Shown piece by piece: positions 7,801-64,000 of a stretch of DNA of 64,000 nt. Position 1 is the stretch's first letter. Every line of letters starts with the position of its first letter. The notes below the pieces were generated by a model. That model made no database searches, was not told the origin of the DNA, and saw only the letters and a list, made by a program, of their open reading frames with translations. This stretch comes from Ascochyta rabiei. Lineage: Eukaryota > Ascomycota > Dothideomycetes > Pleosporales > Didymellaceae. The translations under genes and the position numbers were made by a program. The stretch spans positions 1,940,141-2,004,140 of the forward strand of contig NC_082410.1 in the NCBI RefSeq assembly GCF_004011695.2. Direction: 5' to 3'.

Positions 7801-8519
7801 AGTCGGCGGACCTGACCGTTCGCTAGCTCCGGCTGACGAGAGGCGCTTACAGGTGCAAGGTACCCGTGGTGCCCGAGTCTTGAAATGTCGCTGCGGGTGC
7901 TGTGCTGAACAGAATCGGGCCCGAGGATGTTCTTGTGTTTGTATTCGGTAACTCCATCCACGTCTGTGCAAAGATGATTAGTCATTGGCAACGTGTGTGG
8001 CAGCTTCTTACACGGGTCGACTATACAGACTCCACAGCTATAACCAGCTAGTTGTGCATTTCGGGTATGGCGCAGTGTCGACTCGCATTGAATAGGATGT
8101 ACTGTTAGTCCGGTCTCATACGGATGTGACAACTCTACTCGACCGCAGCTTGACCTGATTTCAGATTCTGGCGACATTGGGTTTGGTAGCTGACTCTACG
8201 CAGCATAATGACATCGGGCGGCGGGCAAGTGAAAAGTGTGAGACGTGAAGTTTACTTCTCCGTCTGCAATTTTGTATCCTTGCGAGCGACAACGTGAGGG
8301 GCTGATCGGCCGGTCAATTGCGGTCAAATGGTGTCGCGGAGCCTTTGACTCGTGAGAAGGTTCGTGTTCGTGAAGTTGAACAAGTTTTCGAACAGGCGCA
8401 TACATGGGGTTAGACTAGACCAGAACATCACAACTCAATTTGTATGTCGATTTGCATGCGGATCAGTCATTTCGTCTATATTAGTTTATTGTCGGGACAT
8501 TATCGTTGTTAGCCCTTCC
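4812..8519. other. Long intergenic stretch without a recognisable gene
   Basis: About 3.7 kb of mid-GC, non-RIPped sequence. Every open frame longer than 60 codons was read; none shows a family motif, a signal peptide followed by coherent sequence, or extension across plausible GT-AG introns. No tRNA or repeat was recognised. Confidence 0.6.
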
Positions 8520-20873: not shown

Positions 20874-21225
20874 TGAGTAGCTCTCTTAGAGGGGTCCATC
20901 GGATCAGCAGGTTTGTGGTCTTTGATTGATTGATTGATTAATTGATTGATTAATTGATAAGTTTAACGTCCTATGTGAGTCTAGGACTATATAAGACAAG
21001 AGCATTTAAGCTGCTTTAGTAATTTAAGAAGTGTATTTGTACAAAGGGATAGTAAATATGTGTTCGCAGTCATACAGTGAGGGCCTGTGCCCTAGGTTAT
21101 TAAGAAGAGCTGTTGCCCTGTTGAATTAGAGTTGTGTAGAACTATCCTACAAGTAGGCTATTATTCTAGCGTTTGTTGTTTGTTGTCTATTGCTAGCTAT
21201 TGCTATTGCAGTAGACGGTCTTCTT

Positions 21226-21429
<204 letters not shown>

Positions 21430-21764
21430 ATTATTGTAAAGAGCTGTTGCTCTGTTAAATTGTAGTTGTATAGAGATAGCCTGTAGGCTATACTCTAGAA
21501 GTTGTTTATCTATTACTATTACTAGTAGTAGACTGCTAGGGGCGTTTAAGCTGTTGCTTAGTTAATTTTGTCTAGGTATAGGAGGTTAGTATAGCTAGTT
21601 ATAATAGGGGGTATTTGTATAGGTTGTAGCTAGGCATATAGACCTACTACTTCACTAAGGTAGCAGGTATCTATAGGCCTAAAGAGAGAGCTGTTGCTTT
21701 GTTAATAGAGTGTTTGTATAGAGGAGGTCTTAAGCTGTTGCTTAGTTAATTTTGTCTAGGTATA

Positions 21765-40400: not shown

Positions 40401-41631
40401 ATGAATTGGCGGCACTAGTTGTTAGCTAGGGGTCTCCTAGGTGCTTCCCAGTGTCGCTCCTAGAGGGGGTTAACGCCTAACTATTATGCCTTTTAAACTT
40501 TCTCCTATCGTCTAAAGAAAGAGGTCTCTTGTTTCTACTGCTACTTTTAGTCTACAACCCTAAGTTTAAGGGGACTGTTAAGGTTTCTGCGTTTTAGAGG
40601 GCCTGTTTAAACTCTGCCTACTTAGTAATATGTTCTAGACTACTATTCTGCTAGATTTTATATTAGAGTGTAGGGGGCGTAAGGCTCTATATAAATGCTA
40701 TCTTAAACTTATAGTTGTTACTGCTGTCTTTAAAATTTGCAAAGTTATAGGGCAGTAGAGACTTCTACTTATTTAACTTTATTAGGAAGGTATTAACTAA
40801 ATTGTTAGACTTCTACTTATAGTTAAAGTACTTATTGTAGTTTTTATACTGTGTAAAGACTAGGTCCTAGACAAGCTACTCCTCTTCTGCGCAGAGGTTA
40901 GCCTAGGTCTAGATTAATCCCTTATTAATATGTTGTTAAATTAATTCCTAGTAGACACTATAGTAGATAGTGCCTATAATCTAGTAGGTACAGGTTATAG
41001 AGTCTTTAAGTACTTAAGCGTACTAGAACGCCGTGTCTATATCCTTAATCCACTAGTCTACCTACTAGGTTAATAGAGGCTTATTGTCTGTCTTAAGTTT
41101 TAGCTTAGGCTAAACATTATTAAGGACTTATATTATTCTGCTAGCCTTATTAAACACTAGGTGTTAGCTACCTAGTGCTTGTCCAGCGTGCGTCTATTAC
41201 AGGGTTTTAACTACCTAGTTAAATTGTTATTGCTAGATTTTAATCTCCCGCTTAGTGGCACTAGACAGTTCTGCCTTATTAAGTGCTTCTAGCAACAACA
41301 GGATAGAAGCTTATAGTAATTCTATTGCAGGTTGTATAGCGCGTAGCGTTAGAGCGTCTAGTATTGTAATACCTGCTGTTATAGCGTCTAACTTACCCCT
41401 AATGTAAGGGTTAAGTAGTAGCTCTATAGGCAATAGTAACACCCTAAGTGCATTATCGCGTTATTAAGCGTCTAGCTCCTAACTAAGGTTATTGCAAGGG
41501 GGTAGCTCTTCTATATTACTAGTAGTTAAGCAGAGGTTATGTTGTCCTCCTGCCATTATAATAGCTAGGTTTTTCCTGCTCCTCTGCTACTAATTAGCTG
41601 CCTGTTCTAAGAGGAGTATAAAGGATTTGAA

Positions 41632-41831
41632 TGGTAAGGGCACTGTAGACAGGTAATAGAGCAGAGCAAGATAGGACAAATAATAGGGTAATATTTAAGA
41701 GATAAGACAAATCCTTAATAGATAAGTTATAAGGTTTGTGAATATTATATACGTGTGTGGCTGGTAGGTCCCTAGGCTTGGCCTGGGACCTGGCCGAGGT
41801 ATCTCCTGGCGTGGGGAGAATACTCGTGACA
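41632..41831 (-). repeat. 5' LTR of gypsy element 1
   Basis: Begins TGGTAAGGGCACTG and ends TCGTGACA on the + strand, followed by the GTAAG duplication. Less decayed than the other LTR in its GC-rich part (GCCTGGGACCTGGCCGAG). Confidence 0.88.
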
Positions 41832-42090
41832 GTAAGAGAGTCCACCCTAGGGGCTGTTCAGACCCAGGTCACGTGCAACAATAACCAATTAATTTCAGGT
41901 ACCCCTCTAAACAGAATGCAGAACCAGGTCACGTGCAACAGACAACCAGGTCACGTTCAACAATAATCAGACAACTTAATTAATTTCAGGTACCTCTCTA
42001 ACTTAATTTTAGCTTTATAGTCTAATTCTATAATTGTCTAATTATCTGTACCTTATATATGTTATTAAATAGGTTAATAATACTATTTAC

Positions 42091-45000
42091 TGTTATGGGC
42101 TCAGACCTTATCTAAGCCTTAAGCGAGAGGGGATAGTCACGTGCTCTACAGACATATTAGAAGGACACGTAATGTGTTACCTCCTTAAGAGATATAATAC
42201 TATATTAACCCTTATTATATCCTACCCTAAGGCTAGTCTATAACATTTATATCTCTTTTTCTAGGAGAACAGCTAGCACTTATACTATATTAGCTAGCTC
42301 CTAGAATAACCCCTTAAACATATCTGTCTCCTTAACCCTTTAGGAATTTATAGCCTAGATATTATAGTTTATAATAAACTTATAGTAAGCCTTAACTACT
42401 ATTAATAAGTATATAGTATTACTTAAACGTAATAACTCTAATATATGTGTGTTTGTAGAGTCTCTAGCATAAATAGCTAACGCCTGTACTAGACCTACGT
42501 CTACAGTCCTATTATCCTCCTTAGGAGTAACGCTGTACCTATTAACGTCTACCCTAGCCCCTAACCTACCTTATAAAGCGCTGTTTTTAGCGTCTGCTCT
42601 AGGCTTATATGCCCCTATGTAGACGTCTACAGCCTACAGGAAACCTCTTCCTATAGGTAAGGCCTTTACTAGAGACAAATCCTTATTTAAGGCGAGTAGG
42701 TTGTAATAGAACATAAGCTGCAGGTAGATATAGCTTTATTAGTAGGCTATAGAATATATTTACCTTTATATAGTCCTAGCTAAGTGCGTCTGTATAATAA
42801 GATATAGCTCTGTTCTATAAGATTAGGGGTACCTAAGGTGTGTAGAGCCTAGAGGACTTCCTAGCATACCTAGAATTCTGCTATAGCAACTACTACAGCT
42901 AGAAACAGGCCTAGGCAAAACTAGAAAGCGTCTGTTAGGGTCCTAACAAGTTGTTCTTAGACTTTTTTATCTAGTTTAAGCAGCTACTAGTGCAAAGTGC
43001 CAGCCTCTAGTAGGACAGAGAACAGCGCCTATTAAAGCTCTACTAGGCCCTAAACGCAAACATCTATAATTTAGTAATAAACTAAGAAGTAACTTATATA
43101 GGTTATAATATAGCTATTATAGAGTATAAGTCTATTACTATAGACATTAAGACTATAGCTATAGAAAACTAGCTGTGCTACAGCCCTGCCTAGGCGCTGC
43201 CTAAGCGTAACAGGGATAGTAATATTAAGATAACAGTAATGTCTGTAGTGCGCACTAGCAGCAGTGCTAAGCGTAGGGGTTAGAAGTAGTCTACTCCTAA
43301 CTAGGCTACGTAGGTTCCTAATAAGGTATTTTAGCAACGCTAGGAGGCTAACCTGTATACCTATTGCGGCAAAAGGGGACATATTTACTAGGATTGCGCT
43401 AACGCAGTAGTAACTACAGTACAGGCAGTAATAATTATAGGTAAGAAAGAGGCTAGTTTATATAGGGGAAACTAGCTGCTCCTAATATAAGTCTAAGTTA
43501 GGAGCGCTATAGGAGTATATTAGTAGAGGAGACTACTAGTGCAGGGGCATTATAGGCTGCTAGGGGAGCTATTACAGACTCTATAGACAAGCCCCTATTC
43601 TACATTCTATTATTTATTAATAGGGTAATTTAGGCTAATACGCTAGTAGACATAGGGTGTAAATACTTTAGTATAGTAAGTAATAACCTTCCTGCGCGCT
43701 TAGGAGGAGACTTTATTAAGGTGCTGCTACAACGCTTAGTATAAGCAGTAGGCACTAGTAGGAAGTCTATAATCTCTTGTTTAGTTCTATTTAGGTACAA
43801 CTTAGACAGGTAGCGCTTGCAGGCTGTAGCCTACGTAGTGCCAGGTCTAAGCTAGAATGTTATTTTAGGGAAGCCCTAGCTCTAACAAGAGGGCGTAGTG
43901 TTAGACGTAGAAAAGGGCATACTAAGGATATAATAGGTAGGGAACCTTATTATCTATAAATCCTTATAGTGTACAGCAAATGTTTACGTAGCTCTCCTAT
44001 TAGCATCTAAGTTTAATAAGACCCTAGCTAATAGGCTCTAGAAGCGCCTGCCTAGGGACTGGTTTGTCTCTATAAGCCTCTACAACATTACTAAAATCTT
44101 CTTAGTTTAATCCCTAGGAGCGTAAGGGACAGCAGAGGAGGTAGACCCTCTTCCCCCCAAGTCAGTCTAGTTTTAGGACCTGTTTAATAAGAGTAAGGCC
44201 TCTAGCCTTCCTCTATATAGGGGCTAGATAGATTACTATATACAGTTATAACGCAACCAGTCTAGAAAGGAGGAGCCTCTACCCTAGGGCCCTCTGTACT
44301 ACATGCTAAGGGACCAGCTACTTAAGCTATAGAAATAGGTGTTAGCACTAATAGACAAGGGGTAGATCTACACCTCCTCTTCCCTAGTAGGGGCCTTAGT
44401 CCTGCTAGTTAAAAAGTCCTTTAGTAGGTAGCGTATGTACGTAGACTATTACACACTTAATAGCATTATAATTACTAACTAGTACCTACTCCTTCTTATT
44501 AAGGAGACCTTGCGTACACTAGGGGGTGCCTACTAGTTCTCTAAGGTTAATATCTATTTAGCATTTTACTAGATTTATATTGCAGAAGGAGATAAGCACC
44601 TTACCACGTTCTATACCCGTTTTAGGCTCTTTAAGTAGCTAGTCTGCCTATTTAGCCTAGCTAGAGCACTAGCATCCTTCTAGCGTTACATTAACAGCGC
44701 GCTTTAAGAGACATTAGGCAACTATGCTACTGCGTACCTAGATAATGTCCTAGTTTATAGTAGCAGGTCTAGGACAGACTAATTAGAGAAGGTTAGCAGA
44801 GTCCTTACGCTCCTACGCAATGTAGGGCTATATTTAGATCCTAAGAAGTGTGTATTTATAAAAAAGGAAGTACACTACCTAGGATATATTATAGAAGCTA
44901 GAAAGGACATTTATCCTAATCCTAAGAAGGTTAAGGCTATCTGTAATTAGGAAGCCCTACAGTCTTTGCGCAGGGTCTGCAGTTTCCTAGGGTTTACTAA

Positions 45001-45482: not shown

Positions 45483-48400
45483 CACAGTCGCAAAAACGGT
45501 GCTTAGGTGTTACTTAAAAATTGCAATGCTATTCTCTGTTTCTTAGAGGAATACAGCGTGCTAGTATGCAAGGATTACTAAACAGGCGTTGTTAATCTTG
45601 ATAGGCATCTCTCGCAGCACTACAACGTGCCTGCTGCAACTTAGAGAGAGATTGTTAGGCGCTTTAGTTACTACACGTTAACTGAACCCAACAATGTTAA
45701 ACTTCCAGACAAGCCAGCAATGCCGATTAAAGAGCTTAGGGCGCTGGTAGACGTGCTGCAGTGCAGGACATGTAACCACATTAGCACCAACAAGGATACA
45801 TTCCGCCAGCACTACAAAAAAGATTACTAGCAAGCTTAGATAAGAGAGAAAAGCTTACTATATAAGACTGTTAAAGTTCAGAGTTTTTTCTGTACAGCAG
45901 GAATGTAGAAGTATTTTGTTGTTAAAATAGACAATGCTGGCAATCCTAAAAACACTAATATTAAAGTTGCTGTGCAGGAAGAGCTGGCTGCGTACAGCTT
46001 GACATAACAACAAATTCAAGAAGAGCTGCAGATACTAGAAGCAGCAGCAAAGACTAATAAGACAGGCTGGTTTAAGCGCACAGGATGGTTAGAGTTCTTT
46101 AAGGGCTGGAATCTCAAGCATCTCGTCTACTAAGCCTGCGCGCCCGATTGCAGTAAAGACAAGATAAAGCTTGCCACCAAGCTGACAGAGCGACTGGTTA
46201 AGAAAAGCATTAGGGGACTGGCTACGCTTCTGTATGAGCTAAGGCGCTGGTTACGCAGTGCAAAACTGAGCAAGGCTGACACCTGGCCGCTGGCGCAACT
46301 GTAGAACCTAGAGAGTTAGGCTTGGTACGCAAGCTATATGGTGAAGTTTGTCTACTTCTATCTGTAGGTGCTGGCTAACAAAGAGCAGCGGATCATCCGC
46401 GTAAGAGAGGGACGATTTGACTGTGACAGTGAAGAGACGGCAAGCAGCGAGGAGGACAGCAAGGAGGACAGCGAAGATGGCGAAGATGGCGAAGAAAGCG
46501 AAGACGAGAGCGACGCCCCGCAGCCCCCCTGCAGGTCACGCAGACTAACGCTAATATACGCAAAGGTATCGCAAGACAAAATAAAGGACGCTTGCAAGTT
46601 GTTTACGTAGACAGTTGAACAGAAGGCGTGTGCAATCAGGCTGTGGGATGCGCTTGACAGCAGCGAGCGAGCGACGCAGATGGACGCACTTCTGAAGTCT
46701 ATTAGCTTGTTCATCTTTATAAAGTATCACCCTAAGGCGCTGTCTACTGGCTTAATGCAGTTTCTTGCTGTACTTGGCATTAACCTAGACACAGGCCGCT
46801 TACAGACCGCAAAGCACTATTTGTACATGCTAGCAGGCATAGTGTACTGCGTGTGAGTAATTAGAGCTAAAAAGCTGCTTCCAGGCGGGCAGCGCAACAC
46901 ACAGACAGAGCAGGACTGCAATTGCTTTATTAAGATGCAGCATAAGTATCTGGCAGACGGCACGTTTACTCTAATAAGCGCGATAATTAGTATGCTTGCG
47001 TACAGGAAGCACGTTGCGTTAACAGCCAGCAATTCAGGCAACGCATACTGGTTGGTAGACAAGCAGATATTCTATCTAACTGGTCAGCAGATTAAGGTCA
47101 GCCGCTTCTGCAAGATAGCGCAGGACTTAGTAATAGAGACGTCTGAGATGCTGTAGGAGCTGTGCTGGGTGGACGACAAAGAAGAGCGCTTTGCAATTAA
47201 TCTTAAGCAGGTTGTTAACAACGTTACGTTTACGAAGCAGGGCACGTCTTTTGTCAACGTACCAAGCAACAAGCTAGAGAACAGGCTTGCTTAGATGCTG
47301 ACGAGGGCGAGGACTACAAACGGCGGTCTGCAACTGAAGCGCGCTAACAGACAGTAGAGCGTTAAGGCGGTGCGGCGGTACATAAGGCAGATAGACCGCT
47401 TCTTAGAGCTGCTGCTGTGCAGCGTGCACGTCACGTTAGGGCAGCCAGGAAGGGGGTTAGAGATCACAACAATTCAACACTGCAATAGCATGCTGCAGGA
47501 TTGCAATATCTTTGTTGCTGACGGGTAGATCATGACGGTGGTCCGCTATCACAAGTTGCAGTTGTAGTAGGACAAGCTAAAGATTGTGCCGCGCTTCTTG
47601 CTGCTGCAGCTTAGGCAGATTATAGCGCTCTACTTGGCGTATATACAGCTGTTCCGCAAGTATCTAACACTGTAGGTGCTTGGCGGTGGCTACAGCGACT
47701 ACGTCTGGCACAATGCACAGGGCGCGTGGAACACTAATTAACTAACAAGAGTTCTTAAGCAAGAAATACAGAAGAGACTGGGTGTTACGCTGTATACGCT
47801 TGACTACTGGCATACTACTGTAGGACTTAGCCGAGTCTACGTCAGAGAGTCGTTCAGCAAGGGCTACTAGGACGACATTGGCGAAGTAGACGAGGCAGAA
47901 GTGGAAGACAACAGCGAGGATATTATTAAGCTGCAGAACTTACACACAACTGTAATAGGCGTAGGCAACTACAGCGTGCTAATCGATATTGTTAAGCATC
48001 TCAGCGTGCGCTCGATCGACGCATTCCAGCCGCTCAGCGCAGCGTGGCACAAGTTTTTAGGTGTTGATGGCACAGGCGAGGTACGTCAAACAGCTGTTGC
48101 AAGCAGCACGCGGAGGAAAAGGCTGATGTAGGCAAGCATGTCTAGGCTGGCGCTGCTGCTGCGGGACAAGGAGGTGAGGGTAGAAGACCCGCGCAAAGAC
48201 AAGATCCGTACAGCGCTGCAGCAGGTGCTAGGCACGCAGGAGGTAGGGTTCCGCTTGGTGGAGCAGGAGCAGGCGATGCATGCCGTTCTTGACAGACAGA
48301 ATCCGCTGGTCGTTGTGCTCCCGACAGGAGGCGGCAAGAGTCTGCTGTTCACAGTGCTGGCGGTTGTAGAGCAGACAGGGGTTACAGTTGTTGTTGTGCC

Positions 48401-49940
48401 GTACTAGGCGCTGATCAACAATCTAGTGGAACGTATTTAGAGCAGCGGCGTGGAGTGCATAGAGTAGAAGCACGGCAAGAACAACCCAGCATCTGTCGTT
48501 GTGGTCAGCGCAGACAACGCTGGTAACATTCTTAACATAAGTAACTTCTTAGCGTACGCAGGGTTGCTGCTTTAGAAGGGGCTGCTGCAACGGGTGGTGG
48601 TGGATGAGTGTCATCTCGTCTTCTCAGCACACAGCTGGCGGCCGAAGCTGGCGCTGCTGAAGAACTTGCGGCTGCTTGGCTGCCCGATCGTGCTTATGAC
48701 AGCAACGTTGCCGCCAGTGTAGGAGCACGCGCTGGAGTTAAGCATACTTATACAAAATATAACATATATACAGGCAAGCACTATATAGCTAAACACGCGC
48801 TACTTTGTCTTGTAGTGCGAGCCGGAGCAGAAGGAAGAGATGGCTGTGACAATCGGCTCGCGGCGTCAGGCACAGCTGCGGGAGCGTGGGCTGAAGGGGG
48901 TTGTGTACTGCCGGAGCAAGACGCTGTGTAAGGACATGGCAGCCGCGCTTGGCTGTGCGTTTTATTACGCAGGTGTTAAGAACAAGAAAAAAGCAGAGAA
49001 GCTGGAGAGGTGGGAGCAAGAGGGCGGGCTGATAGTAGCAACATCCGCGCTAGGCACTAGCGTAGACTACCTGGGGATTGTGTACATCTTGCACGTGGGC
49101 ATGCTGTAGAGCATGATTGACTACGCGCAGGAGAGCGGGCAAGGCGGGAGAGCAGGCGAGGCGGTAGATTCGGTGATACTGGTGGGGCACAGCAAGGTGG
49201 AGCAGACGCTGGCTGTGCAGCCAGACAACATCAACGTGTTAGCGATGGGGCTTTTTATTGTTAGTAGCGGCTGTCAGCGGCTGCTGATAAGTTGGTACAT
49301 GGATCGGATTGGGGTGAGCTGCAGCAACTTAGAGGGAGCGGCTGGCTGTAACCGGTGCGGAGACGGGGTCCGGCTGTGGCTGGACGAGCAGCAGAGGCAC
49401 AGGCGCGAATGGGGGCAGGTGGAGCAGCTGTTCAACGAGCTGCGGGCTAGGTGCGTGGCGTGCTGCATAATAGACGAGGCGGGCAGCAAAGAGTAGCGTC
49501 AGCACAGGACGATGCAGTGCGCAGCGCACCAGGGCGTGACAGGGAGAGAGCTGGACGACTTCCGGATGGCGATGACCCAAGCAAGAGGCGCGAGCAGGAA
49601 CAAGACGGTCAAGAACAACTGCTGGAGGTGCTGGGTCAGTCAGAAGTACTGCGCGACAGGGGAGGACAAGGAGGCGAGGTGTTAATGGCCGAACGTGGTG
49701 GTGCTGTTGGCAAGAGCAGCAGGGCAGGTAGAGAAGGGGGTAGAGATTATCTGACAGTGCGGGTACAGCAGAGAGATAGGAGGGGATTGGAAGGCGTATG
49801 CGGCGTGGCTAGGCAAGTAACACACTGTCAGGGTGTGGGATAAGCGCGAGTTGTTTAGCAACGCAATAGTAGTTGCAGTTTAGGTAGCGTTGTTTATAAC
49901 AGAGAACTGCGAGGCATAGGTAGAGATAGAATAGGATTAA
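45483..49940 (+). pseudogene. Telomere-linked helicase relic TLH1 (zinc fingers, recombinase-like core, RecQ helicase)
   Basis: One frame can be followed from about 45,483 to the TAA at 49,938 without any frameshift, but with dozens of stops (mainly TAG at likely Q/W positions, a few TAA/TGA). Order: OrsD-type C2H2 fingers (LVCKDY...LDRHLSQHY near 45,561; LQCRTCNHIS...FRQHYKKDY near 45,756); an acidic linker near 46,430-46,520; a recombinase-like core with PGRGLEITTI (near 47,450), DYWHTT (near 47,808) and LHTTVIGVGNY (near 47,943-47,975); a RecQ-type SF2 helicase with LPTGGGKS (near 48,322), VDECH (near 48,600), TATLPP (near 48,700) and QESGQGGRAGE (near 49,128); then a Cys-rich tail (NCWRCWVSQKYC). 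RecQ helicases of this kind are known next to fungal telomeres. Decay is by point change only, as expected of RIP. It cannot make a full protein. Confidence 0.85.
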
Positions 49941-51590
49941 TGTTAAATTAAGGTTCAATGTCTAGCTAATACAGATTTGGCACTGCAACTGTGTAGAACT
50001 AGAGCAATGTGCACTTTGCAGTTGGTGCTAAGAGAAGAAGAGGGGGGCGGGGGGCCTGTGGATGTGCCCCCCCCGGAGCGAAGCGACAGAGAGGTTAGGG
50101 TAGAAAGAAAAGGGGTGGGCGGGGGGCCCGTAGATGTGCCCCCCGAAGCGCAGCGTTCGAGAGTGAAGGAGGGGAGGTGGTTGAGACCGCGGAGCGGGAC
50201 TGGAGGAGAGTAGCAGGTAAGCAGGGTGAAGAAGAGGGAGTGGGTAGGCGGTGGGCCCGTTAGATGTTACACAAGAGCGAAGAGGCAGTAGAGGTAGATG
50301 TAGAGATAGATAAGCGGTACAGAAAGCAGATTTAGGGCGAATTTTTCAGCAACGCAATAGTAGTAGTGATTAGAGTGGTGTTGTTCATGCAGCAGTACAA
50401 CAGTGCGCAGGTAGTGGAGATAGACTGGCGTTAGTGTTAAGGTTGAGTTAAGGTTGCGTATCTTGGAGATGCTTGGCTGACTTGCGCGCGCGCATCATGC
50501 AAGAGTTAGGGAAGTTAAAATTAATAAACAGTAACACAAACAGTGCAGACGTGCAGAAAAAGAAGACAGAATAGACGTTTTAGCTATAAGATAGCAGTAA
50601 GCAGGTTAGTGTTAAGGCAGAAAAAAAATAAAAAATAAAAAAATAGTAGAGTTAGGTCCGGGCTGGTACGCAAGTTAGAGTATGGTTAGGGTTAGTTGTA
50701 TTAGCAGAGCGTAAGTAGAAGCCTGTAGGAAGGCTCTGGACCCCGTAGAGAGTGTAATGTAGGCCCGTTTAAGAGTGCAGAGAGAAGCGCAGTAGGAGGA
50801 AAAGAGGGGCGTAGACTACAATAGAGGGTAACAAGCAGGTAAAAGAGGCTGCAAGCCTAAGAAGATTAGCTGTTAACAGTAGAGATTACAACATTAAGCC
50901 GTAAGGGAGTGCAAGGGGAGATAAAAGAGGAAGAGGGTAGATAGAAGGCCCGTAAGGTGTCAGGCAGGAGCGAAGAGGCAGGTGCAGAGTTGGGTGAGGG
51001 GGCGGACGCAAGTCAGGGTTAGGGTTACCGGTATTTGGGGCAAGCAGACAATGAACAGGGGCAACAAACAGCAGAAGAAAGTAAGAAGGGCTGACAAGGA
51101 GCACATACAGTGAGGGTAGAAGATGAGCAGATGTTAGAGGGGTGGTCAGAGTAGGAGTTAGGTTCCGGACCGGACGCAAGTCAGGGTTGGGGTTACTGGT
51201 ATTTAGGGCAAGGTAATCATTAACAAGAGCAACAAAGCAGGGCAAGGTGGTGCAGAGCAAAGATAAGAAGCGCCGGGGCGCAGAGAGCAGCAGAGACAAG
51301 AGAAGAGGGGGGCAGGGGGCCCGTGGATATGCCCCCGGAGCGGAGCGGTTGAGAGTGAAGGAGGGGAGGTGGTTGAGACCGCGGAGCGGAACAGAAGAGA
51401 GAGAAGGAGGGGAGGTGGTTGAGACCGCGGAGCGGAACAGAAGAGAGAGAAGGAGGGAAGGTGGTTGAGACCGCGGAGCGGAACAGAAGAGAGAGAGAAA
51501 GACAGTAGCGTAGTAATAGTAGTAAAGAAGAAGAAAAGAAAGAAGAAAAAAAGCATAGTAGTAGTTAAGCATAAAGGAATAGAGTTCTCC
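49941..51590. repeat. Repeat-rich subtelomeric tail after TLH1
   Basis: Contains a GC-rich hairpin motif (GGGCGGGGGGCC...GTGCCCCCC) at about 50,043, 50,116 and 51,307; a relic of another TLH C-terminus at about 50,335-50,450 (FFSNAIVVVIRVVLF, matching TLH1 residues FSNAIVVAVQVALF); a ~170-bp repeat around CGCAAGTCAGGGTT (about 51,005 and 51,177); and three copies of a 46-bp unit starting GAGACCGCGGAGCGGAACAG (51,375, 51,421, 51,467). No gene is supported; the long minus-strand frame at 50,886-51,572 is translated repeat. Confidence 0.75.
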
Positions 51591-53921: not shown

Positions 53922-56900
53922 TACACCATAGAACTATTTGCGCAGCTGTTTAAACACCGGCCTGAACTTTGAGTCGTAGTTTGTAAACCATGTGCCACCG
54001 CTATTCCACCAGCGCAGATCGTTACGCACCTCAAAGAGCGCCATCCCAAGGTCACAGTCGCTACGCGCAAGAGCCTGGCGGCAGCTGTACGCGCGCTACC
54101 AAACCTTGCGTGGAGTCCAGGAGACGTGCGTGTACCAAGGCCGGCTAAGGAGCCCGTCTTTAGTCTGAAAAGCTGAGAAGACGGGCTGGTATGCTTGTCG
54201 GAGCGTTGTTGGTATACCTGCATCTCGCTGCAGGGCATGCAGAAACATTGCAAGGATGAGCATGGCTGGGTGAACGAACAAAAGCGAGGGGGAGATATAA
54301 GGCAAAAGAGCAAGCACTCGCGCAACCAAGTATGGCGAGACAGCCAATCCTGCCAGCGCTTGTTCAGAGCTGTTGGCTGGCCGGCGTATGTTGCAGTCGA
54401 GACGAGCGTTGGAGCTGCGACTCTAGCAGACATCTCCCAGAGAGTGAAGGCAGATCGCCAGCATCAGCGAGAAGAGCGTAAGGCAGCAGCAGCGCAGGAT
54501 AAGATTAAAGAGGGCATCCGTTCGCAGGCTGATCTGTGGCTAGAGCTCACAGAATGGGTCCCGCACCTACAAGGTATCCCAAGGGCGGCACTTCTGCGCG
54601 CTAAACAGCTAGCTGGTGGGGAGGTAGACGCGCGTGGGAAGGAAGAAGTGGCGTTTAACAACACGGGCTTACGCGATGTTTGCAAAGCTATGGAGCGGCT
54701 GATACAAAAAGCGTTCGATAGCAGCCGAGCTGAGGTTGTCGGCAGACTCGCACTGGAGATTATTGAGCGACGTGAGGCGGGCGCAGAATCGAACGAGCGG
54801 CCCTTCTACGCTAGGCATCGAGTCGGTACAATCAAGAAGTACAGCCAGAAGCTGGTGAGCATCCTCTGCTACCTGTGGCGCACATATGACCAGGTCGAGC
54901 GGCCGCCATACAAACTTACCAGCACGCAAGACGCCCTCTTGGTGTCACTCCAGCAAATAGCCCGCTCAGACGACGCTGCGAAGAAAGAGAAACTGGAAGA
55001 GCGATGCCTGCGCTTTTGGATCGCCTTGCTCAACCACAGCCTGACTGGCGACGAGCACGAGAGCGCACTGCTGAGCGGAGTGGCTGTCCTCGGCCTCAAG
55101 CCTGATCACCATGGCGGTGGGTAGGTTCCGGCGCACGAGTTCTCGCCAACGCTGTCTGCTTTGATCACTACCTCGAAAGCGCTCGTAGTGCATCATGCCC
55201 GCTGCCAGCGAGATAAAGCGCTTCAGAAAGACCCTTGTACAGCACCTACTGCGTATGAGCTAGTTAAAGACATGTCTGAACGGTTTATGACGCTGTCCGA
55301 CTTCAAAGGCACACCTAGTCCTATGAATCAAATGCTCCGCTTGCGTACGCTAGCTAGAACACAGGCAAAGCGACGTAATACTCCCGGTATTGTGTCGTGG
55401 GATGGAGATCGGCTTCTCATTGACAAGCAGAGCTTTTCGCTAGCCGATCTCCGGTCGATGGTGAAGGGACTCTGCGAGACGGTGCGGTTGCAGCTATTCA
55501 AGGACGTCCTACTCTTGGATCTAGACGAAAGGGGTTGCGTGCGACCCAGGACTACCCGCTTCCAGAGGTGTCCGTGGACAAACTCGTCGATCAGCCAGCC
55601 GAGCTGGCTACGGGCTGGAGCTTTCTGAAGCACCCCGACAACCAGCTAGATAGATGGCAAGACTGGCTTCTAGACCGGGTGTTGGACGAGGCTCCGCTAA
55701 GGGAGAGATTCATTCGTGGGATAGATAGCACACAACGGCCGGAACAGACGCTATGGCGCGATGACGCTGTAGCTAGGTACATGAAAGGAGTGCGTCGGTT
55801 TAAAGAAGGCCTCTTCACGCTTGTTCACATGTCTGGCGGCGGGCCTGGTTGCGGGACAGAGATTACCTCGATACAGTGCGAGAACAGTGCAGACGGGGTA
55901 GGGTATCGGGGGGTGTTTGTAGAGGGTGGCCTGGTATCCTTCACCACTACGTACCACAAGGGGTATAGCTTTAGCAAGCGTGTCAAGACGATCCACCGCT
56001 ATGTTCCCCGGGAGGTGGGTGAGCTGGTGGTGTACTTCCTCGGGCTCGGTCGACCGTTCATAGATGATCTCCAGATGCTGCACAATGGCGTTGCCCGCCC
56101 TACCGCTTTCATCTGGGAGCCAGAGCCGGAGGAGCAGTGGGGCGACGAGAGCGATAGCGAAGAGAGCGACAACGGAGACGAGTACGGCGAAGCCGACCGT
56201 GAGAAGGCACGATCCGCTAACCCAGACGGGTACTAGGGCACCGATCGCATACGCCGTGTCCTGCGCAAGCAGACCTTTCAGTACATGAACACCGCTCTCG
56301 GCACCCGCGCCTGGCGGCATGCCTACCCAGCCATCCACCGAGAGCTGGCAAGAGATGGACAAGCACGCGACTGGTTGGAAGTGCTCTACTAGAACAAAGC
56401 GCCGGCGAAGAGCAACGCGCAAGCGTTGCAGTCCAGCCACAGCCTTAAAACAGAGGAGGGCAACTACGGCCGCTCCATGATGGAGTCTCCCTTTCAGACC
56501 ATGGCCGAGCGGGAGGAGTTCCGGCGGGTGAGCATGGACTGGCATCGCGTGCTGGAGTTTGCATCCGCCTGGGAGGACGGCCGCATGCACCCCGGTGTTC
56601 GCGCAGAGATGGTAGCGCAGCAAGAGAAGCAGGCGCTCCAGCGCTGGTCGTCGCTCGCGATGGTGGACCTTAAGGCAGAGTTCAGGCGACTCGCTGGACG
56701 GCCGGACGCCGAGTATTGTGGCAAGCAAGAAGAAAGCCTCGAGGCTGTAATGCAGCGACGGCTGCGCGTGCTAGTTGTCATGGCTACCGGCACCGGCAAG
56801 AGTATGCTGTTCATGCTGCCCGCGTCCGTCTCGCCAGGCGGCGTCTCCGTGGTCGTGGCTCCGTTGAATGCCTTGCGAGACGATCTGCAAGATCGCTGCG

Positions 56901-58279
56901 ACCAGCTCGGCATCCCCTGCGCGAAGTGGGATGGAAGAAGACCGCCGTACTGGGCTCGTATTGTGCTGGTGACGCCTGAGAGCGCAGTCACGAAGGCGTT
57001 CGGCAGGTTCATTAACGAAAAGCGCATGCTCCATCAGCTAGATCGTATCGTGATAGACGAGTGCCACGTGCTGCTGGAGTCGACACAGGACTGGCGGCCA
57101 GACCTCCTCAAGATGGTGGAGATGACGGAGAAGGGCACACAGGTTGTCTACCTGACTGCAACCTTGCCGCCCACGCTGCAGCCCGCCTTCTTGCACACCG
57201 CAGGGCTCAATGCCCAGACCGTAACCATATGCCGCGATGAACGCACCACGCGAACGAACATTGCGTACCAGGTGCTAGAGTACACACGTGGCACGCTAGA
57301 AAAAGTACTTATTGAGCTCGTGGCTGCGAAGAGGAGTAGGTACGGACCCAAGGCGCAGATCATCGTCTATTGTCCAACTGTGGACGAGACAAAACGGCTT
57401 GCGAAGCTTCTGCAGTGCTCTGCATACTACCGTCAGATGGGCTCAGACAAGGAAAAGGCACGCATAGTACGAAGCTTCACCCTAGGCATAGAGAAGCTTT
57501 GTACAGCCACAAACATGCTAGGTCTTGGGCTCGACGCTGCAGGCGTCCGGGTGGTGATCCACGTTGCCATGTGTCCCCTGCTGCTCCAATATGTGCAAGA
57601 GAGCGGCCGGGCGGGACGAACGGGGCTCAACAGCAAGTCTATTGTTATGAGAGCGTGCTATGTAACGAAAGAGGGGAAGGTAGAGAAGGCGCTCAGCTAC
57701 AAGCTGGAGCGACCTGCAAAGGAGTTCATGACAGTCAAATCCTGTCGGCGAATCGCGATAGACAAGCACATGGACGGCAGACAGAACAGGCAGCAATGCG
57801 AGATGGGAGAGTCGAAGTGTGATCTATGCGAGCGACACCCCGGTGGTACTAAGCAACAAGCCGTCGAAGAAGAGCAGGAAGAGCCAGAGGAGACGCAGGC
57901 CGACACCGCGGCGGTGGCAGCAGAGGAGCAGCGCAGATGTATAGAGCGAGCTATAGTTATTAAAGAGCAGAGGGTTAAGATCCAGCAACGGCAAAGGACG
58001 GAACAAAAAGTATATGACCTGGAGCGGCTAGAGCAGCACTTCCAGCGCTGGAGCAATGCGTGCGCCATCTGCATGGCCACTCAGGCTGACCCGGCGCGCC
58101 ACGACTGGAAGGACTGTTCAAAGGCCAGCGGAGCGCAGATGACATTAATGGAGTCTAAGGTGAAATCTATGCACCAAGTGAAGTGGGAGAAGTATGCGCG
58201 GTGTTTTTACTGCTGGGCGCCCCAAGCCATCTGCAACAAGTGGGAGGAAACAAGCATACAGGGTGCGTTTAAGACATAA
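53922..58279 (+). pseudogene. Telomere-linked helicase TLH2 (zinc fingers, recombinase-like core, RecQ helicase), few lesions
   Basis: Better preserved homologue of TLH1. OrsD-type fingers: VVVCKPCATAIPP...THLKERH (near 53,976) and LVCLSERCWYTC...KHCKDEH (near 54,186). Recombinase-like core: GTEITSI (55,856-55,876, with Cys where TLH1 has Arg), KTIHRYVPREVGELVVYFL (near 55,985), TRAWRHAYPAIHREL (near 56,305) and SSHSLKTEEGNYGR (56,431-56,472). Then a complete RecQ-type helicase: ATGTGKS (near 56,785), VIDECH (near 57,050), TATLPP (near 57,158), the motif V region and QESGRAGRTG (near 57,593), followed by a C-terminal Cys-rich segment (CFYCWAPQAICNKW). Lesions: TGA at 53,970 and 54,174, TAG at 55,122, a frameshift near 55,545, TAG at 56,234 and 56,390. 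The last 617 codons (from 56,426) are open, so a helicase-only product is possible. RecQ-like SF2 helicases unwind DNA 3'-5'; the telomeric role is inferred from location and family. Confidence 0.85.
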
Positions 58280-58699
58280 GGGATGCATGTGCCTTGCTAG
58301 TACGATAGAGTGCTCCAGAGAGCAGTAGCTGCGCTGCTTGCCTGCCAGCCACTGATGTGCACGCCATGGCTGGAGCAGCAGATGCAAGACGCGCCGCGAT
58401 TGTGCACGTAGCGATGAGCTCGGCTTTGTGGCTCGATTGAAGATCAAATGGGCCAGAGAGACGCGAGCCAGATGTGTCGTTCCTATATGCTTGGGAGGAG
58501 GGGCATGTGCAGTCGTATTTAGCAGACTAGAAAGAATGTGTTTGATATAACCGTAACCCGAAACCTTAGGTCAGGAGAAGTCAGGAGAAACGTGCTGTAG
58601 GCTGACTTGCGACTGCACGGTGATCACAAGTCAGAAAGTGCAAAACAGCCAAATAGCAACACAGACACTTCAGAGACGTAGAAAGAAACGCCCAGAGAA
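58280..58699. other. Region downstream of TLH2
   Basis: About 420 bp with no recognisable gene. It may contain the TLH2 3' end; no clear terminator or polyadenylation signal was seen. Confidence 0.4.
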
Positions 58700-59340
58700 G
58701 GGCCACCAACCAAAGTAGTCCCCACAACCCGAGTGATACCCGCCAACCTGAGTGATACCCGCCAACCCAAGTAGAGCCCCCTAACCCAAGTAGAGCCCCC
58801 AACCCATGCGGATCCCCCAACTCAAGTAGAACCCCCAACCCAAGTAGAGCCCCCAACCCATGCGGATCCCCCAACCTAAGTAGAGCCCCCGACCCAAGTA
58901 GAGCCCCCAACCCAAGTAGAGCCCCCGACCCAAGTAGAGCCCCCAACCCATGCGGATCCCCCAATCCACGTAGTTAGCACCAACCTGCATAGTCAGCATT
59001 AACCTGCGTAGTAAGCATTAACCCGCGCAGTAAGCATCAATCCACATAGTCACATGGTCAGCATCAAGCCGCGTAGTCAGCACAAACCCGCGTGGTTCCC
59101 TGAGTAGTTCCACAAGTAGTGCGTCAACCCAAGTGGTTGCCCCACCCGAGTGGCACGTCCAACCCGAGTAGGTCCCCCAATCCAAGTGGTTCCCAAGTAG
59201 TTCCCCACGTGGTTCCCTAAGTAGCGCGCCAAGTAGTGCGCCACCCTAAGTGGTCCAAAAGTAGTCCCCCAAAGTGGCCCAAAAGTGGTCCCCGCAAGCC
59301 AAGGGAGTCCACATCAGTGCCCCCAAGTAGTAAGAGCCGA
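58700..59340. repeat. C-rich minisatellite
   Basis: Imperfect tandem units of about 18-20 bp, core CCCCCAACCCAAGTAGAG with a variant CCCCCAACCCATGCGGAT, most regular at 58,770-58,970 and degenerating to the right. Open frames here read as Gly-Leu-rich repeats and are not genes. Confidence 0.85.
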
Positions 59341-59999
59341 TCATTTAAGAAGAGCCCCCGATCCAGGAAGAGCCCACAATCCAGAGAGAGCAGACCAAAC
59401 TAAGTGAGTCCCCATCTAAAAGCAGCCGTGCGTATTGAAGAAAGTGAGAGTCAGGACAAAGTAAATTTAGATAGATAGTAGAGTAGTTAAGAAAGACATG
59501 CGCAATAGGTAGAAGAGCCAGCAGGATGGTGGATGGGAGAGGTACAAGAAGTTGTTCGTGCAAGAGGGCGTCAATCGCGTTGATCGCGCGAATTTGGATT
59601 AGGCGGGGTTGGTTGCTTTGTAAATCAGGTATAAGAATAAATGGTAGAGGGAAAGGGCATTTAAACAGGGTATTAGGTAGATTAGAAAGATAGAACGGGA
59701 TAAAAATGACGTAGAGCAAGGTGTTTTGGGCGTTTACATAGTATTGTCACAAGATAGAACAGTAGTTAGGGGAAGTTTAGCAAATCCGATTGTGGTGCCG
59801 CAGCCCAGAAAGGCATTCCTGAACCTGTAGATGCCGTAGTGCGTGAGAGAGGGCGGGCGGAGGGCCCGTCAGGTGTCACAAAGCAGTTGGGCAGGGCGGT
59901 AGAGGGTAAAGGAGAAAGAGGGGAGGTGGGTGGGCCGTGATAAGGCATCACGAGCAAAGGATAAAGGAGAGAAGAGAGTAGAATAAGGGTGGGCGGTGG
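59341..59999. other. Subtelomeric sequence without a recognisable gene
   Basis: About 660 bp of transition sequence, containing part of the GGGCGG...GGGCCCGT repeat family towards its right end (about 59,850 on). Confidence 0.4.
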
Positions 60000-60345
60000 G
60001 CCCGTGATAAGGTATCACGGGAGAGGGGGTAGAGGGTTGGGCGGGGGGGGCCCGTGGATGTGCCCCCGGAGCGATGCGGTTAAGAGTGAAGGAGGGGAGG
60101 TGTTTAAGACCGTGAAGCGGGATAGAGAAGAGTAGCAGGTAAGCAGGGTGAAGAAGAGAAAGTGGGTGGGCGGTAGGCCCGTCAAGTGTTACACAAGAGT
60201 GAAGAGGCAGTTGTAGAGATAGATAAGCGGTACAGAGAGCGGTTTTAAGGCGAATTTTTTTCAGCAACGCAATGGTAGTAGCAATCAGAGTAGCGTTGTT
60301 CATGCAGCAGTATAACAGCGCGCAAGTAGCAGAGATAGGGTTAAG
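60000..60345 (+). repeat. Second copy of the subtelomeric tail with a relic TLH C-terminus
   Basis: Matches 50,100-50,435: the hairpin motif (GGCCCGTGGATGTGCCCCC at about 60,048), the CCGTGAAGCGGGATAGAG stretch, AGCAGGTAAGCAGGGTGAAG, TAGATAAGCGGTACAGA, then a translated relic of the helicase C-terminus (FSATQW-like, FSNAMVVAIRVALF near 60,258-60,310). The end of this relic is the border of the cytosine-free tract. Confidence 0.8.
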
Positions 60346-63300
60346 AGATGTATAAAAGAAGAAAAGGAAAGAAAAGAGAAATGAAAGAATTGTTAAGAGA
60401 AGAGAATAGTAGAGAGGATAAAGTAAGAAGAGAAGTAGAAAAAGGTAAAAAATTGTTAAAAGAGTGTTAGTAGGATAGAAAAGATAGTTAAATGTAGTAT
60501 TTAATAAAGAGAGAGTGTAAAAGTATTAGAAAAGATATTTAAAGTGATTAAGATGTAAAGATAGTAAATGAAGAAAAAAGAGTAGAAAATAGAGAAAGAT
60601 GAAAAGAAAGAATTAAAAAGAAGAGAAGAAAGTAGAAGAAGAAGTTAGTTTATTAAAAGATGTATGAAATAAAAGAGTAGTTAAATAGAAGGTGAAAAGA
60701 AAAGAAAGATTAGAAAGAGTAAAAGTTGAGAAAAGAAAGAAGGTTGAAGAGAAAAAGTGTAGAAAGAGGAAGGAAAGGAAAAAGTAAAGTAAAAAGGAAA
60801 GTTGTAGTTTGTTAGAAATTTAAAAAGGTTGAGGAAGAAGTAAATAAGGAGAAAAGAAGAGAAAAGGTATAAAAAGAAGTAAAAAGTAGAGAGTATATGT
60901 TTAAAGAGTTTATAAAGAGTTTAGGGAAAGAGATAAGAGATAGAAAGAAGAGAGAGATTGAGAAGAAAATTTAGAAAAGTAGAAAGAATAAGAATAGAGT
61001 AAAGAAAGTAAGAGGTAAGGATAGAAGAAAGAAGTAGAAGAAAAGGAAAAGAAGTTAAAAGAGGTTAGTTAAGAAGAAAATAATGTTTAAGAAAGAAAGA
61101 TAAGAGAGTAAAGTAGGTTAAGAAGAGAGTAAGAATAATAGGTAGGTGTTAGTATAGAAAGAGAGTATAAGTTTAGAAAAGAAAAGTTAGTAGGGTAAGA
61201 AGTAAAAGTAGTGTAAATAAAAGAAAAGAAGAGAGAAGAAGGTTAAAAAGAGAGATAAAAGTAGAAGGTTTTAAAAATAAAGAAAGTAAGTTGTAAGAAA
61301 GAGAGTAAGAATAAAAGAGAAGAGTAGGGGTTAAGTGTAGGAGAAGAAGTAAGAGTAAGAGAAAGAAGGTGTAAGGATAAAGGTGGGAATATTAGTATAG
61401 GAAGAAAGTGTAATTTTAGAGAGAAAAGTAAAAAAAAATTAAGTTAGTAGAGTAAAAGATAGAGTAAAGAGTAAATATAGGTGTAAAGAGAGAAGGAAGA
61501 AAGTTAAGGTGTTAGAAAAGAGAGTAGTAGAGAAAAGTAAGTGGAAAAGATGAGTAGAAAAGATAAGAAGAAGAGAGTAAGTATTAGGAGTAAAAAATTA
61601 GAGAGAGAAGAGAAAGGTAGAAAGAGAATAAGTAAGATAGAGAGAGGGTAAGTGAGAAAGTAAGTGTATGTGTTAGGAAGAAGGTAAGGAATAGAGTGAG
61701 AGAAAGTAGAGAAGAAAGTAATAGTAATAGTTAGGTTTTAGTGTGAGAAGAGAGATAGGGTTTGGAGAAAAGTTAGAAGAGTAAAATTTAAAGTTTTAAA
61801 AAAGAGAGAAGAAGGAGAATAGGAAAAGAAAGAGTAGTAGTTTAAAGAAAGATTATTAAAAAGTAGAGAAGATTAGGAGTAGTAGAGTAAGGAAAGGAAA
61901 GGATAAGGGAAGTAGAAAGGATAAGAAAAGTAGAAAGGATAGAGAAAAGTAGTAAGGATTAGAGAATAGGTATTGTGAGTAGAAGAGTAGAGGGAAGAAA
62001 AAGATAAGAGAAGAAGAAGTAGGAGAGAGTAGAATAAAGAGAAGAGTAAAGTAAGGAAGAGAGTAGAGTAAGGAAGAAGGAGAGAATAAGTGTAAGGGTT
62101 AGGGTTTTAGAGTAAAAAGAGGGTTAGGGTTTTAGTGTAAGAAGAGAGGTTAGGGTTAAAGTAGGAGAGAGTGTGGAAAGAGAAGAGGTAGAGGTAAGAG
62201 TGTAAGTAAAAGTAAGGAGTAAGGTTTAAGTGTAAGAGAAGAGTAGAGGTAGGAAAGAGAGAGTAGAGAAGAGGGTGAAAGTAGAAATAAGTAGAAGTAA
62301 AGGTAAGGGTGAGGGAGAGAAAGTAGGAGGAAAGAAGAATTTAAGAGTAAGAGAGGGTAGAGTGTAAGAGGAAGAGTTAAGGAGAGAAGTAGAGAGTAAA
62401 GATTAGAAGAAGGAAGAAAGTAGGGATAAGGAAGAGAAAGTGTAAAGGTTTTAATGTAAGAATAAAGAAGAGTGTAAGAGTAAGTATAAGGTTTTAGTGT
62501 AGGAAGAGGGTTGGGTTTTAAGTAAAAGTAGAAGAAAAGAGAAAGATGTAGTAAGTGGTAGAAAAGAGTAGAAGAAAGAGAAGGAAGAAGTAGAATAAGT
62601 TAAAGAAAAAGTAGTGTTTAAGAGTTAAGAAAGTAGGAAAAAGGAGAAGAAAGTAGAGGTAATAAGTAAAAAGAGAAAAGAAGTAGTAGAAGTAGTAGAA
62701 GAGGTAGTAGTAGAGAAGGAGTTTAGATTGTAAAAGGGTTAGGGTTTAGTGTAGGAAAAGTGTTAGGGTTTTGGTGTAGGAAGAGTAGGTAAAGGTTGAG
62801 GAAAAGAAAGGTGAGAAAAGGAAAAAGAAGAAAGAGAGTTTTGTAGTAAAGTTTTAGAAAAAGAAGGAGAAGGTGAGTGTAGGTTAAAGAAGAAAGTAAG
62901 AGGTGAAAAAAAGTAAGTAGAAGGAAGTAAGTGTTAGGAGTAAAAAAGTAGAAAGAGAAGGAGAGTTAAGAAGAAGAATTAAGAAGAAGAGAGTAGAAGT
63001 GAAGGTGAAAAAGAGGGAGAAAATGTAGGGGTGAGGGAGAAAGAGAGTAAGAGAGTTAAAGAAGAAGAGTGTAAGGGTAAGGGGTAGGGTTAAGTTAGAA
63101 AGAAGAGTTAGAGGAGTTTAAGGGTTGGGGAAAAAAAGGGTAGAAGAGAAGGAGGTGAAAATAGAAGAGAGGGAAGAAAAGTAAAGTAGAGTGTGAAGAA
63201 AGTAAGAAAAAGAAAGTAAGAGTAAAAGTAGTAGTAGAAAGAGAAGTAAGGATAGAAGGAAAAGTAGAAGAAAGAATAGAAAAGAGTAGAGGAAAAGAAA

Positions 63301-63920
63301 AGAAAAGGGAAAAAGGGAGTAGAGGTAGAAGTAGTAGTAGTAGAGAAAAGGGTTAGGGTTTTAGAGTAAGAAGAGTGTTAGGGTTTTAGTGTTAGAAAAG
63401 AGGTTAGTAGAGAGAAGTAAGTGGAAAGAGTAGGAAAAGAAAAAAAGAAGGAAGGAGGTTTTAGAGTTGTAAAGAAGGAAAAAGAAGGTAAGTGTAAGGT
63501 GAAGAAGAGAGTAAGGAGTTAAAAAGAGGTAGGTAGGAGAAGGTAAGTGTTAAGAGTAAAAAAGAAAAGAGATAAGAAAAAGATAGAGAAAAAGAGTTAA
63601 GAAGAAGGAGTTAAGAAAGAGTAAGAAAAAAAGAGGTTAAGGTGAAAGTAGAAGAGAGTGTAAGTAAGAGTAAGGTTTAGGGTTTTAGTGTATGGAAAGA
63701 GGGTAGGGTAAGAGAAAAGAAGAGAAAGAAGAGAAGAGTAGAGGTAAAAGAGAAAGAGTAGAGATGAGTGTAAAAGGAGTAGTAAGTGTAAGTAAAGGTA
63801 AGGAAGAGGGAGGGTTTAGAAGTAGGAGAGGGTGTAAGAGTAAGGGTTAGAAGAAGGAAGAAAGAAAGTAGGAGTAAAGAAGAGAAAGTGTAAGAGTAAG
63901 TGTTAGGTTTTAGTGTAGGA
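60331..63920. repeat. Cytosine-free, purine-rich subtelomeric tract
   Basis: On reading every line from 60,331 to the telomere, no C was seen on the + strand. The sequence is A- and G-rich with some T. It is not a simple tandem repeat, but a short module (TTAGGGTTTTAGTGTAGGAAGAG and variants) recurs at about 61,733, 62,096, 62,130, 62,487, 62,740, 63,350, 63,680 and 63,905. No open frame of useful length exists on either strand. Confidence 0.92.
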
Positions 63921-64000
63921 AGAGGGTTAGGGTTAGGGTTAGGGTTAGGGTTAGGTTAGGGTTAGGGTTAGGGTTAGGGTTAGGGTTAGGGTTAGGGTTA
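63921..64000. repeat. Telomere, (TTAGGG)n
   Basis: About 13 TTAGGG units to the last base of the window with one short TTAGG variant near 63,950. The G-rich strand runs 5' to 3' towards the right edge, so this is a true chromosome end. Confidence 0.97.

Follow-up and report, generated by a model that had tools for sequence, protein, structure and literature searches.

The R element of the yeast Kluyveromyces lactis, attributed to Nickles and McEachern in 2004, is said to be a distal subtelomeric sequence of about 1.5-2 kb, with a strong purine/pyrimidine bias, present at nearly all chromosome ends. As described in the accessible sections of the papers cited here, the TelKO elements of Naumovozyma castellii measure 220-445 bp, contain 75-82% T+G, lie just inside the telomere and include scattered interstitial telomeric seeds. 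In a strain without telomerase they came to occupy every end, and they bind Rap1 in vitro (PMC12408736). In filamentous fungi, subtelomeres with telomere-linked helicases (TLH) are described for Magnaporthe, Metarhizium and Ustilago (PMC11893274). Moreover, Pyricularia ends contain interstitial telomeres, acquire telomeres de novo and undergo rearrangements driven by breaks, in connection with MoTeR retrotransposons and failing telomeres (PMC8381367). In their accessible sections, papers covering Ascochyta rabiei and A. lentis mention telomeres and repeat-induced point mutation (RIP; PMC7341154, PMC8022934) as well as subtelomeric helicases (PMC11893274), and do not mention the element considered here. 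This element is a tract of about 3.6 kb adjoining the telomere of A. rabiei, whose + strand is devoid of cytosine. It occupies the right end of contig C6, in a stretch of 64,000 nucleotides hereafter called the window (RefSeq assembly GCF_004011695.2, contig NC_082410.1, positions 1,940,141 to 2,004,140). The assembly analysed comprises 40.9 Mb in 23 contigs, and is not identical to the published one (PacBio 166x with Illumina correction, 33 nuclear contigs, according to the accessible text of PMC7341154). Among the titles listed in literature searches on C-free subtelomeres, on strand-biased subtelomeric elements and on the RIP motif described below, none dealt with such a tract, subscription literature being mostly outside their scope; the listed papers with C-free wording that were consulted concern, in their accessible parts, the telomere's own strand or cytosine methylation. 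Below, CnL and CnR stand for the left and right ends of contig Cn, and features with window coordinates are given on the + strand.

From position 60,331 to the last letter of the window, the + strand contains 1789 A, 1200 G, 681 T and 0 C (3,670 nt), as the initial annotation had stated. The last 78 nt (63,923-64,000) are the telomere proper, (TTAGGG)n, delimited with Tandem Repeats Finder. The non-telomeric tract, a full-type copy, thus covers about 3,592 nt (60,331-63,922; A 49%, G 32%, T 18%, C 0%). Its purine content is 82%, and the opposite strand retains 32% C. Assuming the 13.2% C of the adjacent spacer, the probability of finding no C in 3,670 nt is about 10^-226, in keeping with the earlier view that chance is impossible at ordinary composition. 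The tract was also rightly held not to be a simple repeat. Its compressed size is close to that of an order-1 simulation (839 vs 864 bytes, compared with 34 bytes for a telomere array), and a short tandem unit, as expected for a satellite or simple sequence, is lacking, since tandem runs are short and of low score only. On these grounds, identity as a simple tandem repeat was ruled out. A known RNA family was also dropped as identity, as the RNA family search over 44-64 kb of the window gave no match. Apart from this terminal run of 3,670 nt, no C-free run in the window exceeds 220 nt. The run of 220 nt (21,224-21,443) overlaps a 203-nt A-free run (21,227-21,429), so that the shared part consists of G and T only; it lies far from the telomere.

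The property is shared by nearly all the ends checked in this assembly. Left-end sequences were retrieved for C1-C20 and C22; as the first 10,000 nt of C4L are all N, 20 left ends could be read. In 18 of these 20, the C-free run at the terminus reaches 1.0 kb or more, telomere included (1,013-3,706 nt): 13 ends have runs of 3,647-3,706 nt, and the others are C14L (3,445), C11L (2,047), C13L (1,651), C6L (1,500) and C12L (1,013). The exceptions are C18L and C19L, with runs of 119 and 91 nt. This base count excludes the case, envisaged in the initial annotation, of a pattern confined to one end. Among right ends, direct reading covered the window and the terminal 1.6 kb of C1, which has 0 C, and the other 17 relatives were recognized by homology. 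Searches with pieces of the tract, in which the best candidates were scored, together with BLAST of left ends, give lower bounds: tract relatives occur at at least 39 of the 43 ends searched (20 of 21 readable ends on the left and 19 of 22 on the right). Among the best candidates scored, no relative was found at C19L, C8R, C16R and C17R; C8R does bear a telomere. Beyond the A. rabiei genome, viral contigs yielded none, fungal genome collections being outside the search. The 15 full-type copies together contain a single C in 53,882 tract bases. In the diverged or truncated terminal copies, C amounts to 2 of 2,304 bases in C6L, 3 of 671 and 0 of 1,907 in C11L, 3 of 693 and 0 of 394 in C12L, and 7 of 756 in C18L. 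The terminal C14L carries 1. A copy buried about 30 kb from the end of C21 has 10 C in 3,000 (99.7% C-free), and another, about 13 kb inside C20, has 1 in 755, the same C as in C6L. Four further buried copies are located at 12.5-14.2 kb of C2, 13.4-15.7 kb of C15, 12.5-13.3 kb of C17 and 993.0-993.9 kb of C22. In the copies counted, C is thus rare throughout, with the highest numbers in C18L, which is truncated, and in the C21 copy, which is buried.

The tract differs from its flank in the way it varies between ends. Fourteen left ends align with the window across about 10 kb. They form with it a 15-copy alignment, from which C6L, C11L, C12L, C13L, C18L and C19L (diverged or truncated), C4L (N), C21L and the other right ends were excluded. 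In the flank, 457 of 6,237 columns are variable, and C>T or G>A accounts for 400 of the 458 changes from the majority to the minority base. In the tract, only 18 of 3,595 columns vary, all of them singletons: eleven beside small indels in two copies, three clustered in C14L, three TG>TA in C16L and one T/C in C14L. The target of RIP in the flank is YCR, with 345 of 802 sites hit (43%), as compared to 37 of about 929-938 for RCR (about 4%), 3 of about 925-931 for RCY and 15 of 883 for YCY. Both strands are affected (155/364 and 190/438 YCR sites), so that flank RIP is not strand-specific. The motif here is pyrimidine-C-purine, not simply CpA, and is observed in the recent variation of the flank (54,101-60,330) as well as in old AT-rich DNA (35,000-43,000), where the share of trinucleotides relative to genic DNA is 0.10 for TCA, 0.05 for TCG, 0.18 for CCA and 0.05 for CCG, with 1.35 for ACA.

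In the tract, YCR sites are absent from the + strand and number 39 on the other strand, of which 4 are hit (10% vs 43% in the flank). TGA and TGG occur 29 and 10 times, where 105 and 69 are expected, and TGT 61 times for 39 expected. By inspection, the TTAGGG repeat contains no YCR site. With few or no such sites in either, the tract and the telomere share the property of being repeats that RIP can hardly touch. The earlier comparison of the tract with the telomere G-strand was therefore apt, as the tract bears telomere seeds and has much of the telomere's scarcity in RIP targets. RIP-derived DNA would show C>T on both strands, a high AT content and few targets; here, the other strand has kept its 32% C and recent RIP is nearly absent. 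In the flank, T>C is found at 0 of 656 purine-flanked sites while C>T is found at 37 of 938, which argues that new C's are pushed back to T. RIP can thus be considered a guard of the C-free state and, at most, a partial cause of it.

The telomere seeds are in excess in the tract. TTAGGG is found 9 times, for a mean of 1.8 and a maximum of 8 among 500 order-1 simulations, and GGGTTAGGG 4 times, for 0.04 in simulations. Most seeds sit in ten partial copies of a 42-nt module, whose junction form occurs within 150 nt of 32 of the 44 contig ends (at most 1 mismatch). In the window, single telomere-seed modules are located at 62,482-62,523 (repeat family D1) and 63,673-63,714 (repeat analysis). Double modules are located at 62,095-62,161 (GGGTTAGGGTTTTAGwGTAArAAGAG; repeat family D1, pattern counts) and, for repeat family D3, at 62,733-62,792 and 63,348-63,407. 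A terminal cap module (GTGTTAGGTTTTAGTGTAGGAAGAGGGTTAGGG; 63,887-63,933), the motif found near 32/44 ends, forms the junction between tract and telomere.

Several ends are truncated or mosaic. In C18L, the tract stops at a telomere-like seed, directly followed by the telomere. In C9R, the match to the tract extends to about 63,693, within the module at 63,673-63,714, and the telomere comes immediately after. C19L is broken inside the C-rich 18-bp array of the flank and continues directly with TTAGGG repeats; this end has lost its tract and was healed de novo. C13L is identical to the window across about 880 nt of the tract, except for one 1-nt gap, and then belongs to another subfamily. In C11L, a 1.85-kb transposon, which has inverted ends of 47 bp and is flanked by a TA target duplication, interrupts a tract of the C12L type; the empty site is found in C12L. 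This transposon (reverse-complement of C11L, about 6108-7957), about 2-3.9 kb from the telomere, retains 463 C in 1,849 bases (25%). The C-free block at 5000-6000 of C11L was rejected as a buried copy because it belongs to this one interrupted tract. C11R was rejected as a truncation at a seed, since the normal junction motif is present, and was not counted.

At the proximal border, the last C is at position 60,330 and the homology to helicase-type relics ends at 60,338, in agreement with the initial annotation, which placed the start of the tract at the end of a relic helicase C-terminus. This relic C-terminal-like stretch (60,251-60,338) was delimited by an alignment of three such stretches, in which the relics at 49.8 and 50.3 kb part from the window sequence at 60,338. 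In a homology search, short relic matches elsewhere all terminate (6/6) at query base 108, that is window 60,338, and the relic at 50.1-50.4 kb terminates at the equivalent position too. A telomere-like AGGGTTA (60,337-60,343) spans this break. The spacer that separates the helicase element from the tract (59,401-60,330) is purine-skewed and C-poor (13%). In this spacer, CT is scarce (4 seen, 0.17 of expected) despite being spared by RIP.

At nearly every end searched, the tract has helicase-type elements on its inner side and the telomere on its outer side. From the distribution of the tract, its seeds and mosaics, the RIP motif, the scarcity of targets and the low variation, we infer that it originated without C, changes chiefly by copying and serves a function. 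It can be proposed, with a probability that we put at about 0.45, that in A. rabiei the tract forms a cap element of the distal subtelomere, written essentially in three letters on the strand whose 3' end lies at the telomere, born without C, maintained by copying and serving as a reserve for the telomere. It would have arisen where an end had been healed, telomere-ward of the healing point, from C-less DNA resembling the telomere G-strand. It may then have grown, diversified and spread by copying, through slippage, conversion and break-induced copying between ends. Such copying would reshuffle A, G and T within a closed alphabet: as no donor has C, none would be introduced. Rare point mutations to C would be partly reverted by RIP and overwritten by homogenisation, with the near-identity of the 15 copies and the mosaics as signs of such homogenisation. 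The scarcity of RIP targets would keep the tract uniform where the neighbouring flank cannot remain so. Seeds and truncations suggest that the tract is a reserve for rebuilding worn ends. As a sacrificial cap, an end worn into the distal tract would meet a seed within a few hundred bases, at which telomerase, or a copy from another end, would restore the telomere.

The divergence between copies bears on this proposal. Subfamilies at about 69-75% identity remain nearly C-free. Between the tract of the window and the diverged copies, 1,504 apparent substitutions were counted, 23 of them to C; in the same comparisons, T>A (212) and T>G (128) far exceed T>C (9). Such a spectrum is unlike known mutation chemistry, and looks as if produced by reshuffling or misalignment of A/G/T DNA.

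It should, however, be noted that several observations weigh against a copied, C-free-born element. In low-complexity alignments such as these, apparent substitutions are unreliable. When only clean differences are considered, that is columns with four matching bases on either side, the window differs from the terminal C6L and C11L copies at 29 and 37 positions, and none of these 66 changes is to C. Should they be real point mutations, C would have to be kept out by something more powerful than copying; neutral copying accounts for 0/66 only if most differences are copied patches, and this is the main weakness of the proposal. Differences are clustered just 1.6-2 times over random, with one of four comparisons above all 500 random placements and one tying the maximum (in a control gene, differences are less clustered than random). 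For the other copies compared with the window, clean differences to C number 4/66 (buried C21), 2/24 (C18L) and 2/13 (C12L). Further counts are 2/51 for the pair C6L-C21, 0/20 for C6L-C11L, and 0/5 and 0/2 in the distal part of C13L; C12L and C11L have 4 clean differences, all TG>TA. In a five-way alignment, private changes to C are 0/15 for the window, 2/15 for the buried C21 copy, 6/53 for C18L and 0/1 for the buried C20 copy, C6L having no private changes. Doubts also concern the relation to the telomere. Short seed pieces are not in clear excess (TTAGG 15 vs 9.3, GTTAG 25 vs 26.8), the proximal border has one hexamer only as seed and the proximal 1.4 kb are seed-poor. After masking of the seeds, a 6-nt period gives z values of 4.1 for the distal and -1.1 for the proximal half of the window tract, 0.0 for C6L and 2.0 for C11L. 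Moreover, A reaches 49% in the tract, unlike in the telomere. As a claim about sequence, telomere ancestry of the tract is therefore weak. A decayed telomere array appears less likely as general origin, as the 6-nt period outside seeds is found in the distal half only. Finally, the type B ends (C6L, C11L and C12L) have a different flank, in which C dwindles over about 300-700 nt without a junction, as would suit gradual loss.

The most serious rival, although we consider it rather unlikely, is that selection, or a protein or RNA requirement, bars C from this strand, for the sake of an unstructured 3' overhang, a telomeric repeat-containing RNA (TERRA)-like transcript or an A/G/T-only platform for telomere proteins. 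The 0/66 clean differences to C at terminal copies, the nearly C-free state of divergent subfamilies and the higher frequency of C in buried or truncated copies (10/3,000 in the interior of C21, 7/756 in C18L) are all as expected under such a constraint, and the binding of Rap1 to the strand-biased TelKO in vitro offers a precedent (PMC12408736, accessible sections). Nevertheless, each single C would need to have a selectable effect over 3.6 kb and about 40 ends, C's are borne by the terminal C6L (2), C12L (3) and C14L (1), and an RNA family match is absent from 44-64 kb. That RIP itself emptied the tract of C, by removing purine-strand C's, which nearly always precede a purine, and sparing pyrimidine-strand C's, which precede a pyrimidine, is improbable as the whole explanation, and RIP alone looks insufficient. 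RIP is strong directly beside the tract, where CA and CG are hit and CT and CC hardly, and C>T without T>C at purine-flanked sites goes in the required direction. In addition, the tract is depleted in TGA and TGG, by factors of 3.6 and 6.9 relative to expectation, which agrees with the effect predicted for RIP on the opposite strand, and CT being already scarce in the adjoining spacer, few spared C's may have existed. However, the full motif is YCR, not merely C before a purine, and RCR, the usual context of C on the purine strand, is hit ten times less (4% vs 43%), which weakens RIP as full cause. As RCY and YCY are barely hit, C before T should arise and persist, yet 0 CT are found beside 173 TT. 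The absence of strand specificity in the flank is a further difficulty.

The initial annotation had proposed one-strand mutation, template copying or selection. Template copying is favoured here, in view of the mosaics, the near-identity and the spectrum, but its suggestion of deamination of an exposed G-rich strand is not supported and appears very unlikely. In this reading, taken broadly, cytosines of the G-strand would be deaminated near the telomere, in an overhang, an R-loop or a lagging template. The strand is the correct one and chromosome ends are sites of single strands, but ordinary DNA subjected to C>T changes would end up rich in T, whereas T is only 18%. Outside YCR, there is no excess of C>T on the + strand in the adjoining 6.2 kb (RCY 1/376 and YCY 1/307, vs 2/549 and 14/576 on the minus strand). 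Furthermore, the transposon within the C11L tract retains its C, some C's remain in C18L and the telomere of C19L directly adjoins ordinary DNA, although all three may be recent, and the copy about 30 kb inside is still almost C-free. An artefact of assembly or polishing is hardly credible. The evidence consists of assembly letters, not raw reads, and the 1-nt indels between copies may be sequencing errors; on the other hand, the C-free state is common to different subfamilies, buried copies and the transposon-split copy, and loss of one letter from one strand is not known as an error mode of PacBio plus Illumina polishing.

Inward of the tract lies an open reading frame (ORF) of 628 aa (56,393-58,279) for a telomere-linked helicase, with DEAD and Helicase_C domains, heavily RIP-polymorphic among ends. 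Its best match is the A. rabiei protein EKO05_0010850 (97%). The ORF ends about 2 kb from the tract, and the relic C-terminus at the border is not its end. Between the two is the C-rich 18-bp tandem array (58,702-58,973; Tandem Repeats Finder consensus GCCCCCAACCCAAGTAGA), whose skew is opposite to that of the tract. Further inward, a buried relic of tract-flanking sequence (50,111-50,423), 83.6% identical to 60,033-60,338, is missing the tract itself, and a buried relic of the type B flank (51,360-51,586), detected by BLAST with the C6L, C11L and C12L flanks, ends after a few C-poor bases. An older relic of the helicase element at 46,000-49,900 contains in-frame TAG codons, which are probably RIP damage.

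RIP should destroy long repeats common to dozens of ends, and the tract shows a route for their persistence, namely very few RIP targets. The tract is, in addition, a natural case for testing the way in which the DNA of chromosome ends is produced. If change occurs by copying only, missing letters stay missing and the count of C becomes a clock for true point mutation. A bolder formulation, possible though doubtful, is that of a three-letter DNA: an element of 3.6 kb at about 40 ends, kept C-free in the long term by copying from itself and from seeds and nearly invisible to RIP, would constitute a RIP-proof second telomere.

The K. lactis R element is said to be biased, is not known to lack one base and belongs to a yeast without RIP, whereas the A. 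rabiei tract lacks C and belongs to a RIP host. TLH subtelomeres are characterised by RecQ-type helicase genes close to the telomeres of many ends; with a helicase-bearing subterminal element of this kind 2 kb inward of the tract, A. rabiei has such a subtelomere, as do the filamentous fungi named above. A C-free distal tract is, however, not mentioned for those fungi in the accessible sections of PMC11893274. Internal telomere motifs and healed broken ends recall Pyricularia, where such features are linked to MoTeR (PMC8381367, same restriction), elements of that type being outside the present search in A. rabiei. The closest likeness, by description and as far as the accessible text goes, is to TelKO (PMC12408736). 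Both lie inside the telomere at many ends (tract relatives at 39/43 by homology), have a strand bias in the telomere sense and seeds scattered along them, and are homogenised or copied between ends; the near-identity between A. rabiei ends fits a spreading like that of TelKO-like elements. TelKO is nevertheless short, TG-rich and not described as free of one letter, while the A. rabiei tract is 3.6 kb long, purine-rich rather than TG-rich, with 0 C, in a host with RIP. As far as can be judged, the tract operates like TelKO and the R element. Of the kinds published, TelKO is the nearest, with the A. rabiei tract several times longer and without one base altogether.

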